From Filomicrobium sp. (GTDB lineage: Bacteria > Pseudomonadota > Alphaproteobacteria > Rhizobiales > Hyphomicrobiaceae): 64,000 nt of DNA. Made by a program: the position numbers and the translations under genes. Position 1 is the first letter of the stretch; the number at the start of each line of letters is the position of its first letter. This document shows positions 4,570-33,884 of the stretch, in pieces. Location of the stretch: positions 2,574,501 through 2,638,500 of the forward strand of contig CP051234.1 of NCBI GenBank assembly GCA_017792465.1, written 5' to 3'. The notes below the pieces were generated by a model, which was not told where the DNA came from, ran no database searches, and saw nothing but the letters and a program-made list of their open reading frames with translations.

Positions 4570-6162
4570 ATGGCCGAAAAACCGCGCAAGATCACCCGTG
4601 CCCTTATCTCCGTTTCAGAAAAAGCCAATCTTATTCCATTCGCGCAGGCGCTGGCCAAGCGGGGCGTCGAGCTTGTTTCAACGGGCGGGACGGCGGCGAC
4701 GCTGAAGAAAGCAGGTCTTGAGGTTCGTGATGTGTCCAAGCTCACGGGCATGCCGGAAATGATGGATGGCCGCGTGAAAACCCTGCATCCGAAGGTCCAC
4801 GGGGGCCTGCTTTATATTCGCGACAACGAGGAGCATCAGGCAGCTGCCGACACGCACGGCATCTCAGCGATCGATATGCTTGTTGTGTCGCTTTACCCCT
4901 TCGAGGAGACGCTGGCTTCCGGCGGCGATTTCGACGCGCTTATCGAAAATATCGATATCGGCGGGCCGGCCATGATCCGGGCGGCGGCCAAGAACCACGA
5001 TGGCGTGACCGTCATCGTCGATCCGGCCGACTATGACCGCGTCGTCGAAGAACTCGACCAGAATGACGGCGCGACGACGCTGAAACTGCGGCGGGCGCTT
5101 GCGGCCAAGGCCTATGCGCGGACGGCATCCTACGACGCGGCGATCAGCACGTGGATGGCGGAGGTCGCCGAAGATGATGCGCCGACGTGGCGGACTTTCG
5201 GTGGGCGGCTGGCGCAAGTTACGCGCTACGGCGAGAACCCGCACCAGAAGGCGGCGTTCTATAAATCGGGACTGGCGCGCGAAGGCGTGGCGACCGCCGA
5301 GCAGCATCAAGGCAAAGAACTCTCCTACAACAACCTCAACGATACCGATGCGGCCTTTGAGCTGGTTTCGGAATTCGCCTCTGGCAATGGCCCGGCGGTT
5401 GCGATCATCAAGCACGCGAACCCGTGCGGTGTTGCGCTTGGGTCCAGCCTGGCTGAAGCCTATTCGCGGGCGCTGATGTGCGATCCGGTGAGTGCGTTCG
5501 GCGGCATCATCGCATGTAACCAGGAGATCGACGAAGAAGCAGCCATCGAGATGACGAAGATCTTCACCGAGGTCGTCATCGCTCCTGGCGCCAGCGACGG
5601 GGCCAAGGCGGTCTTCGCGCAAAAGAAGAACCTCCGGCTTTTGACGACGGCTGGATTGCCCGACCCACGCGCTGCAGGCCTTGTCGTCAAAGCGCTGGCG
5701 GGCGGGCTGCTGGTGCAGGATCGCGATAACGCCAACGTCGAAGATCTCGAGCTCAAGGTCGTCAGCAAGCGGGCACCGACGGACGCAGAACTGCAGAACC
5801 TGAAGTTCGCGTTCAAGGTAGCCAAACACGTCAAATCGAACGCGATCGTTTATGCGCGCGACCTGGCGACCGTCGGGATCGGGGCCGGCCAGATGAGCCG
5901 GGTCGATTCAACGCGGATCGCGGCCTGGAAAGCGCTCGATGCGGCGAAGGCGGCGGGACTGGACGAGACGCTGACGAAAGGTTCGGTCGTCGCATCGGAT
6001 GCGTTCTTCCCGTTTGCCGACGGGCTCATCACGGCAGCCGAAGCCGGAGCCACCGCGGTCATCCAGCCGGGCGGCTCCATGCGCGACGAAGAAGTCATTG
6101 CGGCGGCTGACGAACGCGGCCTGGCGATGGTCTTTACAGGCATCCGCCACTTCCGGCACTGA
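4570..6162 (+). CDS. purH: Bifunctional AICAR transformylase/IMP cyclohydrolase
   Basis: This 530-residue protein catalyses the last two steps of purine synthesis: 10-formyl-THF-dependent formylation of AICAR, then ring closure to IMP. The N-terminal ~200 residues form the MGS-like cyclohydrolase domain ([44 protein letters not shown]). The rest is the transformylase domain ([46 protein letters not shown]). The length is the family norm and the start is ATG at 4570. In many Rhizobiales purH follows rsmB and a heparinase-like gene; here those two lie about 16 kb away, so the usual block is split. It is closely followed by a GNAT gene. Confidence 0.97.
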
Positions 6163-26858: not shown

Positions 26859-27149
26859 TTGAGTGACAAACAGTCCGAGTTGCAAAGGGTTCCTGTGACC
26901 GATCCGATCTCTGACGACGTGCCAGTAGCTGGCCAGAATGGGGCCGTCGAGGAGCCGCGAACGTTAACGCCAGCGGCGCAACGGGCGTTGGCGGAGGCTG
27001 AAGCGCGGCGAAAAGCGGCTGCAGACGCCGAAGCAGGCCACAATGCGGATGCGAATGATGGCCAGGAGAAAGAGCTCGGCGGCCAGAAAGGGCCTGAACC
27101 GACGCGCTTCGGCGACTGGGAAAAAGGCGGCATTATTTCGGACTTCTAG
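26859..27149 (+). CDS. DUF1674 / SdhAF4-like succinate dehydrogenase assembly factor
   Basis: A 96-residue protein whose C-terminal third ends [18 protein letters not shown], the signature of DUF1674, the bacterial counterpart of the mitochondrial SDHAF4 that helps bind flavin to SdhA. The middle is a charged helix ([19 protein letters not shown]). The TTG at 26859 is preferred because GGAG lies 8 nt upstream; a longer frame reaches 26745 but overlaps the htpX start. It is divergent from htpX and only just overlaps the next gene's 3' end. No sdh genes are in the window. Confidence 0.82.
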
Positions 27150-27442
27150 CGGCGCTCATTGGCGTTTCCGCCTCCGTACAGCTGGCGCTTCGGCCGCCAC
27201 GCCGGATGGATGCGCCCGTTCCTGAGGTATCGATTTGGCTCAGGTTCGGCGTCCCAGGATCGGACTGCTTTCGGGCTCAGGTGCCCCGGACGTTTCGATT
27301 TAGGACGCGTTGCCTGACAGATCTTGGACTTGCAGTAGCAATTGCGGCTTTCGGGGGTGCCGCAATCGCTGTTAACCAAGCGCCGGGCCGGCGCTGCCTT
27401 AGAACGGCCTGAACCACATTCAACACATTGAACTTTCTGCAT
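27146..27442 (-). CDS. Small Cys-rich basic hypothetical protein
   Basis: A 98-residue, strongly basic protein that I do not recognise. The N-terminal part has CVECGSG and CYCKSKIC, spaced like a zinc-binding module, and the C-terminal part is rich in Arg, Pro and Gly. The ATG at 27442 has GGAGGA about 10 nt upstream, a strong ribosome site, which is the best argument that it is real. Its 3' end overlaps the SdhAF4-like gene by four bases on the opposite strand. It may be conserved only in close relatives. Confidence 0.4.
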   Translation of the reverse strand: MQKVQCVECGSGRSKAAPARRLVNSDCGTPESRNCYCKSKICQATRPKSKRPGHLSPKAVRSWDAEPEPNRYLRNGRIHPAWRPKRQLYGGGNANERR

Positions 27443-27633
27443 TTTTAGAATTTCCTCCATTGCCGCCGATAAGGCACGAAAAGTTTCTAGATCGATTTTG
27501 AGACTGGCCTTTACCGGATACTAACTGCGCTCGGCGCTGCGGGGGCGGTGTTCGCCGACGCGCGCCAGCTGAGGGCATTCACCTTGCACTTCCTTGATCA
27601 AAACGTTTCGCGTTGACTCAAGGAGATACTTCC

Positions 27634-28863
27634 ATGGCCGCTCAGCTCTTCAAGACCGGCTCTTTCATTGCCAAGAGCGAATTCGCTCGAGATGACCGCG
27701 GCAGCGTCGCTGTCATCTTCGGCTTCATGCTCCTTGCGTTCTTGATGGTCGCCGGAGTCGCGATCGACTATGGCCGCCTCTACCATACGAAATCTCGCCT
27801 CGTCAGCGCCGCCGATGCTGCCGCCCTTGCCGGCGGCAGCGCGCTCCTCGATGGCCGGCTCAGCGATGCCGAAATCGAAACACTGGCGAAGAAGTACTTC
27901 CAGAAAAACCTGGAAGATGGCGGTAACCTCTTTGGGACCGTGACGAGCCCGAATGTCACCATAAACCGCGCCACCGGCGAAGTGCACGTCGACACGACGG
28001 CGATCGTGCCGATGTCGATCACGAAGCTTGCCGGATTTAATGACGTCACCGTTCCTGTCGAAAGCGACACGGGATACGACCTGCGCGATATTGAGCTTGG
28101 CATCGCGCTTGACGTCACCGGCTCGATGCGCGGCAGCAAGATTGCCGACCTGAAAGCCGCGGCCAAGGACCTGATCGACACCCTGATGCCGGATGGCGCG
28201 CATCAGAACCGCGTGCGCATCGGTCTTGCCCCTTATGCCGCCAGCGTCAATGCCGGCTCCTATGCGAGCGTCGTAACCGGTCACAGCGGTCGTGGCCACA
28301 CGTGCGTCCATGAACGCTCAGGCACGCAGAAATTCACCGATGCAGCCCCGACCGGCATCAACAAGCTTGGCCGAGAGCGAAATATGAGCTGCCCTTCGGC
28401 GCAAGTTCTCCCGCTCAGCGAAAATAAGACACTCTTGAAAAACCAGATCGACCGCCTGTCCGCCAGTGGAAACACCGCCGGCCACCTGGGCGCAGCGTGG
28501 GCCTGGTATCTCGTCTCTCCGGTCTGGGATTCAATCTGGCCGGCGGCCAACAAGCCGGTTGCCTACAACGACGGAAAAACCATGAAGGCTGTGATCCTGA
28601 TGACGGATGGCATCTTCAACGAAGAGTATATTATCGGAAACGGAAGGTCGGCTCGTCAGGCACGCTCGGTCTGCACCGAGATGAAGGCCAAAGGTGTTAC
28701 CGTTTATTCAATCGCTTTCCAGGCTCCGGGTTCGGCGCAGTCGCTGCTGCAGGACTGCTCTTCGGGTAGCTCGTACTACTATGCTGCCTCGAACGGCGGA
28801 GAACTGCGCCAGGCTTTCCAGAAGATCGCGAAGACACTCAACAATCTGCGGCTGACCAACTAA
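27634..28863 (+). CDS. TadG-like pilus-assembly protein with VWFA domain
   Basis: A 409-residue protein. Residues ~22-50 (DRGSVAVIFGFMLLAFLMVAGVAIDYGR) form the TadE/TadG-type N-terminal transmembrane segment, followed by ADAAALAGGSALL. The von Willebrand A domain shows LDVTGSM (residues ~159-165, MIDAS) and ILMTDGIFN. Such proteins act in tight-adherence pilus assembly or as surface adhesins. The ATG at 27634 has AAGGAG upstream. No other tad genes are near, so it is an orphan. The last 20 codons recur four more times downstream (see the repeat entry). Confidence 0.85.
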   Translation: MAAQLFKTGSFIAKSEFARDDRGSVAVIFGFMLLAFLMVAGVAIDYGRLYHTKSRLVSAADAAALAGGSALLDGRLSDAEIETLAKKYFQKNLEDGGNLFGTVTSPNVTINRATGEVHVDTTAIVPMSITKLAGFNDVTVPVESDTGYDLRDIELGIALDVTGSMRGSKIADLKAAAKDLIDTLMPDGAHQNRVRIGLAPYAASVNAGSYASVVTGHSGRGHTCVHERSGTQKFTDAAPTGINKLGRERNMSCPSAQVLPLSENKTLLKNQIDRLSASGNTAGHLGAAWAWYLVSPVWDSIWPAANKPVAYNDGKTMKAVILMTDGIFNEEYIIGNGRSARQARSVCTEMKAKGVTVYSIAFQAPGSAQSLLQDCSSGSSYYYAASNGGELRQAFQKIAKTLNNLRLTN

Positions 28864-29342
28864 TAGGTCCTTGCTGGCCAACACTTCCTAAAGTCGTGTG
28901 GGCTGGTGGAGAACTGCGGCAGGCCTTCCAGAAAATCGCGAAGACGCTCAACAACCTACGGCTGACCAACTAATAGGTCCTTGCTGGCCAACACTTCCTA
29001 AAGTCGTGTTGGCTGGTGGAGAACTGCGGCAGGCCTTCCAGAAAATCGCGAAGACGCTCAACAACCTACGGCTGACCAACTAATAGGTCCTTGCTGGCCA
29101 ACACTTCCTAAAGTCGTGTTGGCTGGTGGAGAACTGCGGCAGGCCTTCCAGAAGATCGCGAAGACACTCAACAACCTGCGGCTGACCAATTGAGTATTTT
29201 CCGACCCAACACTTCCTAAAGTCGTGTTGGCTGGCGGAGAACTGCGCCAAGCATTTCAGAAGATCGCGAAGACGCTCAACAACCTACGGCTGACCAACTA
29301 AGAAGTCCTTGCTGGCCAACACTTCCTTTGCTCAACACCGCG
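28801..29342 (+). repeat. Five tandem copies of the TadG-like gene's 3' end plus a hairpin
   Basis: The last 20 codons of the gene (ELRQAFQKIAKTLNNLRL and flanks) begin at 28801 in the gene and again at 28911, 29021, 29131 and 29239. The period is 110, 110, 110 and 108 bp. Each copy ends in its own stop codon (TAA, or TGA in the fourth). All base changes I can find between copies within the 20 codons are synonymous. A hairpin CCAACAC...GTGTTGG follows each copy, at 28878, 28988, 29098, 29206 and, diverged, 29316. The copies are in different frames and lack credible start sites. Confidence 0.92.
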
Positions 29343-29833
29343 CAAGCTGGTGTTGACGACCGAAGTCGCGTCGGGAGGCTTCTCTGCCAAGACATCGATG
29401 GCTGGCGCTTCGGCGTCACCCTCTTTTTAGCTTGGTGGCACGTTTGATTTAGGCCCTCAATAAAACATCGCTTCGAGCAGAATTATGCGGCTTGGAAGAC
29501 CAGCGCACACGAGGTCAGTCGCACGCGTGAGCCCTGTTCCGATGTGCTGAATAGTGCGGCAAAATTCTGCCAAACGCCGTGCATGCTGCACCAAGTTTAA
29601 GCAGCCAAAAAGTCTGCCGCAAATACACTTGACCGGAATTGAAAGTCGGTATGCACTATCGGGAAAAGCCTACTTTCAGGGTTTGGAAATTGCCAGGGAT
29701 ATCGTTCAACAACAATGTCTGTGGAAGATCACGCGAAGATGCATCGCATGGGCTCTTTTGATCCAATCGCAAAATAATTAGCCGATTGGCGAAGACATTC
29801 CGCAGATGAAAAATTAGAAAAACGAGTGGGTCT
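29343..29833. other. Intergenic region before the ANTAR gene
   Basis: About 490 bases without a gene I can support. It is AT-richer than the surroundings. Short open frames exist but have no ribosome site or recognisable content. It separates the 3'-end repeat array from the ANTAR operon and probably contains that operon's promoter. Confidence 0.45.
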
Positions 29834-30418
29834 ATGCTCGTACGCAATCTGCATTTTTCCTACCTGCCGGAACACGGCCATTTCTGCGCATTGCTGGACT
29901 TCGTTGGCTTCGACTGGTCGGGACCTTCGCAATGCTCGTTTGGCGCGACGAAGGACGGAGCCGACAGGATCGCTGGATGCATTCCGAACTCGGTCTGTCT
30001 CTTGCTGTTCAGCCGCCGCCGCCGATCCGGCGCTCCCTGCCACAGAACCGATGCTGCGCCTTCGGCGGTCCATGTCGACGCCATAGACGCGGACCTCCTC
30101 TACGATGTCGCATATAGCGGCGGCGGCGTTGTCTACAGTTCTATCGGATCCGATGATCACCTACCCGGTGAGCTATCTGCGAGATCCCGGCACGTGCTCA
30201 CTCACGTTTGCCGCAAAGGGGTCCAGGCGGAACAGGCGCTCGAGGATCGCAACCAGATCTTCCGCGCAACGCGAATCCTGATGGGGATCACCGGCAGCAG
30301 CGAGAACGATGCCTTTCAGAAGCTGAGAACGCTGGCCATGCACAGGCGGCAGACACTGGCTTCGATATCCAAACAAATAAATCGACTGGGAGAGACGACC
30401 TTGGAGCGTGCCGCATGA
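29834..30418 (+). CDS. ANTAR-domain RNA-binding regulator
   Basis: 194 residues. The C-terminal ~58 residues (ALEDRNQIFRATRILMGITG then AFQKLRTLAMHRRQTLASI) match the ANTAR helical domain, which in NasR, AmiR and EutV binds dual hairpins in mRNA leaders to block termination. The N-terminal ~125 residues are weakly receiver-like: LVRNLHFSYLPEHGHFCALL recalls AmiR, but the middle (RRRRSGAPCHRT) is atypical, so a frameshift or rapid divergence is possible. Its stop overlaps the ATG of the next gene (ATGA), which implies co-translation. Confidence 0.68.
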   Translation: MLVRNLHFSYLPEHGHFCALLDFVGFDWSGPSQCSFGATKDGADRIAGCIPNSVCLLLFSRRRRSGAPCHRTDAAPSAVHVDAIDADLLYDVAYSGGGVVYSSIGSDDHLPGELSARSRHVLTHVCRKGVQAEQALEDRNQIFRATRILMGITGSSENDAFQKLRTLAMHRRQTLASISKQINRLGETTLERAA

Positions 30419-31362
30419 CACAAGCAAAACGACCCTTCGTTCGGGTCACGGAATTATGGGTCCCGAACGCTGACGGGCAGAAACTGAAGTTGGCCCGCGG
30501 CCAATATGGTGAGCTCAGCGATTTCGAGACTGTCAGCCAGGACTTGGAATTTGCTTTCGGCGAAGGCTTGCCTGGAAAAGCCTGGAAAGATGGGCATCCG
30601 ATCGTCATGCACGACCTGTCGAAGCCGTTGTTCTTGCGGGAAGACGCAGCCCGGAAGGTCGGCCTGACATGCGGCGTTGCCGTTCCGATCATCAAGGGCG
30701 AAGAGACAAAAGCCGTCCTCGTTCTTCTCTGCGGTGACAGCGAGGAACATCTCGGCGCGATCGAGGTTTGGAACGCGCCGCCGGGTGAACCTGATATGGG
30801 CCTCTCGGATGGCTATTTCGGAACCGCGTCAAAGTTCGAGTTCCAGTCGAAGCACATGAAGTTCCGCAAAGGATTTGGTCTGCCGGGCCTCGCCTGGGAA
30901 AGTGGCACGCCGATCGTCATGGGCGACCTTGGACGGACCAAGAAATTCATCCGGCGCCAAAGTGCTGAGACTTCGGGGATTACGCGTGGTCTTGGCATTC
31001 CGCTTGGCGATCGCGACGACGGGACCTGGGTGCTGACGATCCTTTCGGCATTAAGCACGCCGATCGCCGGGCGCTTCGAGGTCTGGCTGCCAAGCGACGA
31101 CGGAAACGGTTTGGTTTTCAACACCGGCATTTGCGAAAGCGGAGCTGACCTTGGCGGCGCCTACGAAGGCTTGAGCGTCAGCAAAGTTGACTCTGCGCTC
31201 GGACGGGCGCTGCATGACGGGATACCTTGGATCTCGACGAGCATCGAGGATGAAGACCCGGAAGTCTCCGCATCCTGTAAGGCCGCCGAATTAAGCAGGT
31301 TGGTCGCGATGCCGGTGTATTCGGGAGAGAAGTTAAATTCGGTCGTCGCCTGGTATTCCTGA
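30415..31362 (+). CDS. Triple-GAF-domain protein
   Basis: A 315-residue soluble protein made of three GAF-like repeats, about residues 8-110, 114-215 and 219-315. Each opens with a similar strand (VTELWVPNADG, AIEVWNAPPGE, RFEVWLPSDDG), and the first two share GLPGKAWKDGHPIVMHDL / GLPGLAWESGTPIVMGDL. GAF domains bind small ligands or cofactors. No output domain follows, so the signal is probably passed to a partner; the ATGA-coupled ANTAR protein is the obvious candidate. An in-frame extension upstream to 30208 lies inside the ANTAR gene and is rejected. The ligand is unknown. Confidence 0.75.
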   Translation: MTQAKRPFVRVTELWVPNADGQKLKLARGQYGELSDFETVSQDLEFAFGEGLPGKAWKDGHPIVMHDLSKPLFLREDAARKVGLTCGVAVPIIKGEETKAVLVLLCGDSEEHLGAIEVWNAPPGEPDMGLSDGYFGTASKFEFQSKHMKFRKGFGLPGLAWESGTPIVMGDLGRTKKFIRRQSAETSGITRGLGIPLGDRDDGTWVLTILSALSTPIAGRFEVWLPSDDGNGLVFNTGICESGADLGGAYEGLSVSKVDSALGRALHDGIPWISTSIEDEDPEVSASCKAAELSRLVAMPVYSGEKLNSVVAWYS

Positions 31363-31396
31363 ATTTGCGTGACGAGAAAACGGAAGGGTGTTCCCT

Positions 31397-31768
31397 ATGG
31401 AAACGAAGCCTGTATTCATGCAGAAGACTTTCAACTTCAAAGGGCAAGGCCTTGAGACGGCCATTTCAATTGAAGGCTTGTCTTATACGGTTCCTGAAAA
31501 TACCAAATCGCAATTGGTTTATTTCCGAGCCGGCAATTCCGCCGATGACCTCGTCAACCTCACGCTTTTACGCGACGGGGAATTGATGCGCCTCTTTCCG
31601 ATCGGCATGAAAAGCTCAATGCATTTTCCGTTGGCCATCCAGGAATTCCTGCCGGCCGGTACTGTGCTGGAACTCGTCCTGTCGGCGCCGGACAAGTTGC
31701 CGGGCTCGATTTTCGTCGACATCGGTTTGATGGAGCACGTCCGCGAGGAGACGGTCGCCGCATCGTAA
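31397..31768 (+). CDS. Small unrecognised protein of the ANTAR-GAF operon
   Basis: A 123-residue protein without signal peptide or membrane helix that I cannot assign to a family. Alternating polar/hydrophobic segments (TAISIEGLSYTVPE, SQLVYFRAGN, TVLELVLSA, GSIFVDIGLM) suggest an all-beta fold. It has no cysteine. The ATG at 31397 has GGAAGGG upstream; GTG at 31388 is also possible. It is 34 nt after the triple-GAF gene in the same direction, so it is probably the third gene of the operon, and a terminator follows. Confidence 0.65.
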   Translation: METKPVFMQKTFNFKGQGLETAISIEGLSYTVPENTKSQLVYFRAGNSADDLVNLTLLRDGELMRLFPIGMKSSMHFPLAIQEFLPAGTVLELVLSAPDKLPGSIFVDIGLMEHVREETVAAS

Positions 31769-31814
31769 GTCGGTGATTTGGTTGCCGTCGCTGCGAGGAC
31801 GTTCGGTTGAAATG

Positions 31815-31848
31815 AAAACGGCCCCGGAGATTTCCGAGGCCGTTTTTT
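31815..31848 (+). terminator. Terminator of the ANTAR-GAF operon
   Basis: AAAACGGCC (31815-31823) pairs with GGCCGTTTT (31838-31846), with further inner CGG/CCG pairing, followed by TT and later a second T run. It is a classic Rho-independent terminator behind the small unknown gene. Confidence 0.85.
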
Positions 31849-31862
31849 GGGTCTTTTTTACG

Positions 31863-31924
31863 CCAACACTTCCTAAAGTCGTGTTGGGCTCGATAACCGC
31901 CAACACTTCCCAGGGTCGTGTTGG
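31863..31924. repeat. Two copies of the CCAACAC...GTGTTGG hairpin next to acs
   Basis: Hairpins at 31863-31887 and 31900-31924 match the element found after each 3'-end copy at 28.9-29.3 kb. The second ends one base before the acs stop codon. Compared with the first, its loop-side bases TAAAG become CAGGG; this turns two inner T-A pairs into T-G pairs if the plus strand is read as RNA, so pairing would be kept. Confidence 0.8.
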
Positions 31925-31925
31925 G

Positions 31926-33884
<1,959 letters not shown>

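Follow-up and report, generated by a model that had tools for sequence, protein, structure and literature searches.

Concerted evolution of tandem repeats proceeds by unequal crossing over. Clusters of REP elements carrying GTAG or CGTC tags are reiterated in tandem along with flanking DNA of variable length, according to the accessible portion of one report (PMC3733652), and REP elements usually exceed 100 copies per genome, as stated in the available part of another (PMC2817692). Genomic islands of the Islander collection restore the gene that they target and leave a displaced fragment of it behind, as the excerpted text of a third describes (PMC4383910). In the literature searched, no report of gene-end arrays diverged at silent sites only was found.

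The window, a 64,000-nucleotide stretch of a Filomicrobium genome (contig CP051234.1), contains a TadG-like gene whose last 22 codons and stop codon are present five times, as the gene's own end and as four displaced copies. This is a pilus-type gene; its product of 409 residues has Pfam matches to Tad (PF13400, 6.5e-13), VWA (von Willebrand A, 7.2e-8) and TadE (1.1e-5), and its best named match, 69% identical, is in a Filomicrobium MAG, so that Filomicrobium appears to fit the genus better than the Hyphomicrobium of the original prediction. The gene and the array are laid out as follows.

27634 to 28863, + strand: TadG-like gene, host of the array, 409 amino acids (from translation and Pfam)
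28795 to 28863, + strand: tail 1, the gene's working end (last 22 codons, stop codon)
28878 to 28902, + strand: hairpin 1, with a single stem change (GTGTGGG)
28905 to 28973, + strand: tail 2, displaced, with seven differences from tail 1, all synonymous
28988 to 29012, + strand: hairpin 2
29015 to 29083, + strand: tail 3, displaced, identical to tail 2
29098 to 29122, + strand: hairpin 3
29125 to 29193, + strand: tail 4, displaced, with a TGA stop codon and then an unlike linker
29206 to 29230, + strand: hairpin 4
29233 to 29301, + strand: tail 5, displaced
29316 to 29375, + strand: composite hairpin 3' of tail 5, with the same outer arms and a second palindrome in its loop (from sequence reading and fold)

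Each unit consists of tail, stop codon, a linker of about 15 to 17 bases, and the hairpin CCAACACTTCCTAAAGTCGTGTTGG or a near variant of it. The five copies of the original prediction are thus upheld; its uniform spacing of 110 bases is amended, since the tails follow one another at 110, 110, 110, and 108 bases, and the tail amounts to 22 codons plus stop. Tandem Repeats Finder reports the array at 28798 to 29327 (period 110, 4.8 copies, score 862), and the window's other three rows score 51 to 55. Because copies 2 and 3 are identical across the full 110-base unit, the number of distinct tails is four, not five; the stop codon is TAA in four copies and TGA in copy 4. A short hairpin follows copies 1 to 4, and after copy 5 the hairpin is longer and encloses a second one. 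Compared with GTAG- and CGTC-tagged REPs, the outer hairpin (CCAACAC...GTGTTGG) has neither tag at its ends, and only the palindrome nested after tail 5 (29333 to 29358) ends in GACG, which is CGTC on the opposite strand. Composite hairpins with one palindrome nested inside another's loop are also present at L120, L122, L123, and L124, the inner one ending in GACG as in CGTC-tagged REPs. Folded as single-stranded DNA, hairpin 2 was better than 199 of 200 shuffles, whereas for hairpins 1 and 4, respectively, 28 and 23 of the 200 shuffles folded at least as well; no Rfam match was obtained within 27000 to 32500. Unlike the flanks of the described REP clusters, the flank repeated here is a coding gene end that has diverged at silent sites only.

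Among the five tails, 10 of the 66 coding positions vary, every one of them a third position, and none of the 22 codons changes its residue. This confirms what had been read by eye from the sequence. Random changes would be expected to be synonymous in 26 to 34% of cases, and the chance of 10 in 10 is 1.4e-6 to 2.3e-5, depending on transition bias. This pattern bears directly on a plain tandem duplication of tail and hairpin within one lineage, homogenised by conversion with the working end and involving no import. Such an origin has precedents in the hairpin arrays at other sites of the genus, tandem units of 33 to 45 bases with short flanks, which agree with the remark on reiterated REP clusters with flanking DNA in the accessible portion of PMC3733652; conversion among the copies is likewise supported by the four-gamete test described below. 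We nevertheless consider it unlikely, because after any duplication the time available for change in the working copy is equally available for decay in the retired one. Duplication followed by in-place decay was simulated in one lineage with simple rates and selection on the first unit only, with or without conversion among the copies; duplication, deletion, and partial conversion were varied over 15 settings. The runs yielded 24,484 autocorrelated samples of five-unit arrays that had 8 to 14 variable sites. None of these was free of replacement changes, and the mean was about 6 to 8 per array. The simulation is simple but clear in direction and suggests that the displaced tails diverged while each belonged to a translated gene. 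That the copies were once parts of translated genes, as first proposed, is therefore borne out by 10 of 10 synonymous positions here, by 3 of 3 in a second species, G008, and by the simulated arrays. The array resembles concerted evolution in the exchange among copies and in its identical neighbours (units 2 and 3), whereas silent-only divergence is unexpected for retired copies according to the simulation. Moreover, tails 4 and 2 differ at four silent sites, yet their non-coding linkers, 15 and 17 bases long, have little in common. In G008, tails 1 and 2 are likewise separated from tail 3 by one to three silent changes, and the linkers are unlike. Both contrasts indicate that selection held the tails as the linkers drifted.

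Eight pairs of sites among the tails fail the four-gamete test, so that the tails have either swapped pieces or undergone repeated changes at the same sites. The cassette-like swapping of gene 3' ends that had been suggested thus survives in spirit, as exchange. Tails 1 and 2 show seven differences in the first 54 positions and one in the last 56 (Fisher p = 0.03, a weak value from a single comparison picked after the data were seen), a skew that fits the import of an allele replacing the gene and the front of the tail.

The simplest account of the silent-only pattern would be translation of the displaced tails, in which a GTG in the hairpin arm would start a peptide of about 25 residues that selection preserves. 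As the original prediction held, the copies do occupy different reading frames, yet each of the four displaced tails is in frame with a GTG within the preceding hairpin, and so is copy 2 of G008. This frame agreement counts as one event, the junctions being alike, and no purine-rich ribosome site is present 5' of the GTG. In copy 3 of G008, a TAG separates the GTG from a tail that nonetheless differs only silently. We know of no use for peptides of this type and regard their translation as very improbable.

The junctions between hairpin and tail are alike in all four cases, which indicates that the unit arose once and that the differing tails then came in by exchange. They also bear on a collapse of tandem full-length tadG paralogues through recombination between tails or hairpins, in which each tail would be the stump of a lost gene. 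Silent-only divergence would follow naturally, every stump having been a gene, and two adjacent TadG-like genes do exist elsewhere in the own genome (1427904 to 1431097). However, the four identical junctions speak for a single duplication over repeated independent collapses. Under the collapse model, deletions would have had to end at identical points on four occasions, unless a single collapse gave way to recombination of the kind proposed below for retired ends. A DNA search of the own genome returned no second full tail: L011 extends 22 bases into the tail at 78% identity, and the remaining matches are parts of the hairpin or linker. The nearest paralogue by protein search is 45% identical, and none in the own genome bears a matching tail. 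Among the matches listed, this tail occurs on just one full-length gene in the genus genomes that have tadG, and no tandem full-length copies are present at the tadG locus in any genus genome searched (one per species). The collapse put forward in the original prediction is accordingly set aside as quite improbable.

We propose instead that the array consists of stacked, retired tadG 3' ends, built up by unequal homologous recombination and probably in part with imported alleles, and we give this reading an even chance. A REP-like hairpin would have come to sit right behind the tadG stop codon, and one tandem duplication of tail and hairpin would have created the hairpin-to-tail junction now present four times. 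Unequal homologous recombination within the unit, probably partly with tadG alleles from related strains or species, may then have supplied a new working end repeatedly, each new end moving the previous one a unit downstream. The displaced tails would be pieces of once-translated alleles with no present role, for which reason only synonymous changes would separate them. Both the sequence of these steps and the allele import are inferred; no donor allele was seen in the comparison of one genome per species. Differences at up to 7 of 66 bases are much for alleles within a species, and the donors would have to be sister species. If this reading is true, the 500-base array is a readable record of one gene's former working ends, and hence of past recombination in the lineage, and a gene's 3' end can become an exchangeable piece when a short repeated hairpin lies behind it. 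The silent-only pattern would offer a clean means of separating retired functional ends from ordinary duplicates. On a more modest view, the locus is a rare instance of REP-like amplification sweeping up coding sequence.

A match to the last 26 residues (E <= 0.05) was obtained in 43 of 103 genomes of the family, and among the matches listed only the own genome (G000) and G008 have several tail copies side by side. The G008 orthologue has three tails at a spacing of 96 bases, and its three variable positions are all third positions and silent. Relative to the G000 units, its units begin five codons further into the tail, and its third tail has no hairpin and runs into a terminator-like stretch. 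A single tail is found at tadG in G001, G003, and G004. Remnants of further tails were sought in seven regions on both strands (14 tests), and beyond the known copies of G008 and G004 only G002 rose above shuffles, with a tail-like piece of 20 bases (18 of 20 matching) after a decayed hairpin, 113 bases behind the stop codon; this piece scored 16, where the best of 40 shuffles reached 14, a weak excess given that 14 tests were made. In G000, the region from the array to the next conserved gene gave no old tail remnant above shuffles. Thus, tadG tail remnants are possible in G004 and G002, and the G004 candidate is the following.

L211, about 5722 to 5788, minus strand: solitary decayed tadG tail of G004, on a different contig from the working tail, stop codon lost

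This tail differs from the working tail by nine silent and three replacement codon changes, and with its stop codon lost it has the look expected of a long-retired end. It is flanked by a MarR-type gene and a putative pyruvate dehydrogenase E1 gene, the latter assignment being our own reading of the sequence, and it shares its contig with the next gene after tadG in G001 and G007, which we take to be acetyl-CoA synthetase. If the two contigs abut inside a cation-exchanger gene, their ends lacking an exact overlap, the working and old tails would be about 2.9 kb apart, and the segment between them would hold the cation exchanger, a YHYH protein, and a MarR regulator.

The gap between tadG and the next conserved gene (29302 to 31925 in the window) is filled differently among relatives: it contains a Tle1-like protein in G002, nothing in G001 and G007, and in the window the genes given below. 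Since its contents differ in this way, the gap is a frequent insertion site.

29834 to 31362, + strand: ANTAR-domain gene, then GAF-domain gene, between the array and the next conserved gene; neither is at that position in G001 or G007

These foreign genes in G000 and G002, and the 2.9-kb segment of G004 if its contigs abut, would suit a tadG 3' end that serves as the attachment site of integrating elements, each restoring the gene end and leaving a tail fragment, as islands in tRNA genes do according to the excerpted text of PMC4383910. As far as that text allows comparison, Islander islands and the tadG array are alike in having a regenerated working end beside a displaced older one, but here no integrase was found, there is no fixed crossover point, and four displaced ends follow in 110-base steps with nothing between them. 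The 110-base units contain no element, and the codon of the tail at which the copies begin differs among G000, G008, G002, and G004, which argues against a fixed crossover site. No integrase or other recombinase was found among the 4 + 7 = 11 proteins scanned beside tadG in G000, G002, G004, and G008, a set that includes the upstream M48 gene and comes from incomplete contigs in the relatives. Successive integrating elements are therefore quite an improbable source of the tails.

Gene-end arrays were also sought at other loci. When 207 hairpin places were tested for repeats across the hairpin, excluding nine loci that cover the window array and places with less than 100 bases of flank, only the G008 tadG locus (L034) had a coding tail among the best 22 alignments inspected. 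A scan of 1,474 open-frame ends in 794,394 bases, many of them in frames that are not real genes, gave three scores of at least 50, namely the window array and two arrays of other palindromes in spurious frames (8 of the 15 best were inspected). That tadG is the only gene seen with a tail array counts against the reading as retired ends, since a general hairpin mechanism should perhaps yield more cases.

The searches of the own genome and of relatives that had been suggested at the outset produced no full-length paralogue with a matching tail and showed the hairpin to be an interspersed REP-like repeat of the genus, not private to tadG. It occurs at 34 sites of the own genome with up to two mismatches (none for a reversed-pattern control), in contexts that appear intergenic from their surroundings rather than from gene-by-gene annotation, and thus resembles REP elements as a short, interspersed, mostly intergenic palindrome. 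Its 34 sites fall short of the usual REP copy number, related palindromes lying outside the count, and the partner of GTAG/CGTC REPs, the Y1 transposase (RAYT, PF01797), had no match in the own genome and was found in 5 of 14 control genomes. The hairpin is also present in five other genus genomes of nine searched and absent from G001, G006, and G007. When no more than one mismatch is allowed, 29 sites remain on the own chromosome, and 28 of these share a strand. In G002, G003, and G008, the hairpin strand agrees with the sign of the GC skew in 19 of 20 stretches (L173 to L192; 19 of 20,000 bases and one of 10,067, with one agreement decided by two hairpins against one), and the single disagreeing stretch has a skew of -0.008. 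Since the strand tracks GC skew, the hairpin is polar relative to replication.

We tentatively entertain, as a rather unlikely possibility, a wider version in which the tadG 3' end and the leading-strand-polar hairpin together form a unit into which gene ends of other lineages are taken up time and again. The array would then be a layered record of alleles, the newest nearest the gene, and the exchange would be cassette-like, have no recombinase of its own, and extend to several species of the genus.

Two further repeats were observed. The same intergenic regions often also contain a second type of interspersed palindrome, GCGCTTCGGATGCCCACC...GGCATCCGGCGC (L016, L011 to L021, and others), and in G003 a 77-base non-coding direct repeat surrounds a hairpin pair (L131, 884 to 1100).

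16S rRNA genes were considered as a compass for replication direction and dropped, because the search that matched 9 of 14 controls gave no match in the own genome. The own chromosome, a single contig, has a positive GC skew in all 20 samples of 15 kb (L153 to L172). The skew is strong (about 0.1) between 2.8 Mb and 0.55 Mb, across the zero point, and weak (about 0.02) from 0.78 to 2.58 Mb, with steps near 0.6 to 0.8 Mb and back near 2.6 to 2.8 Mb; dnaA lies at 2.477 Mb. Along a normal bidirectional chromosome the GC skew changes sign, and the one-sign skew seen here could reflect an inversion, an assembly fault, or unusual replication.
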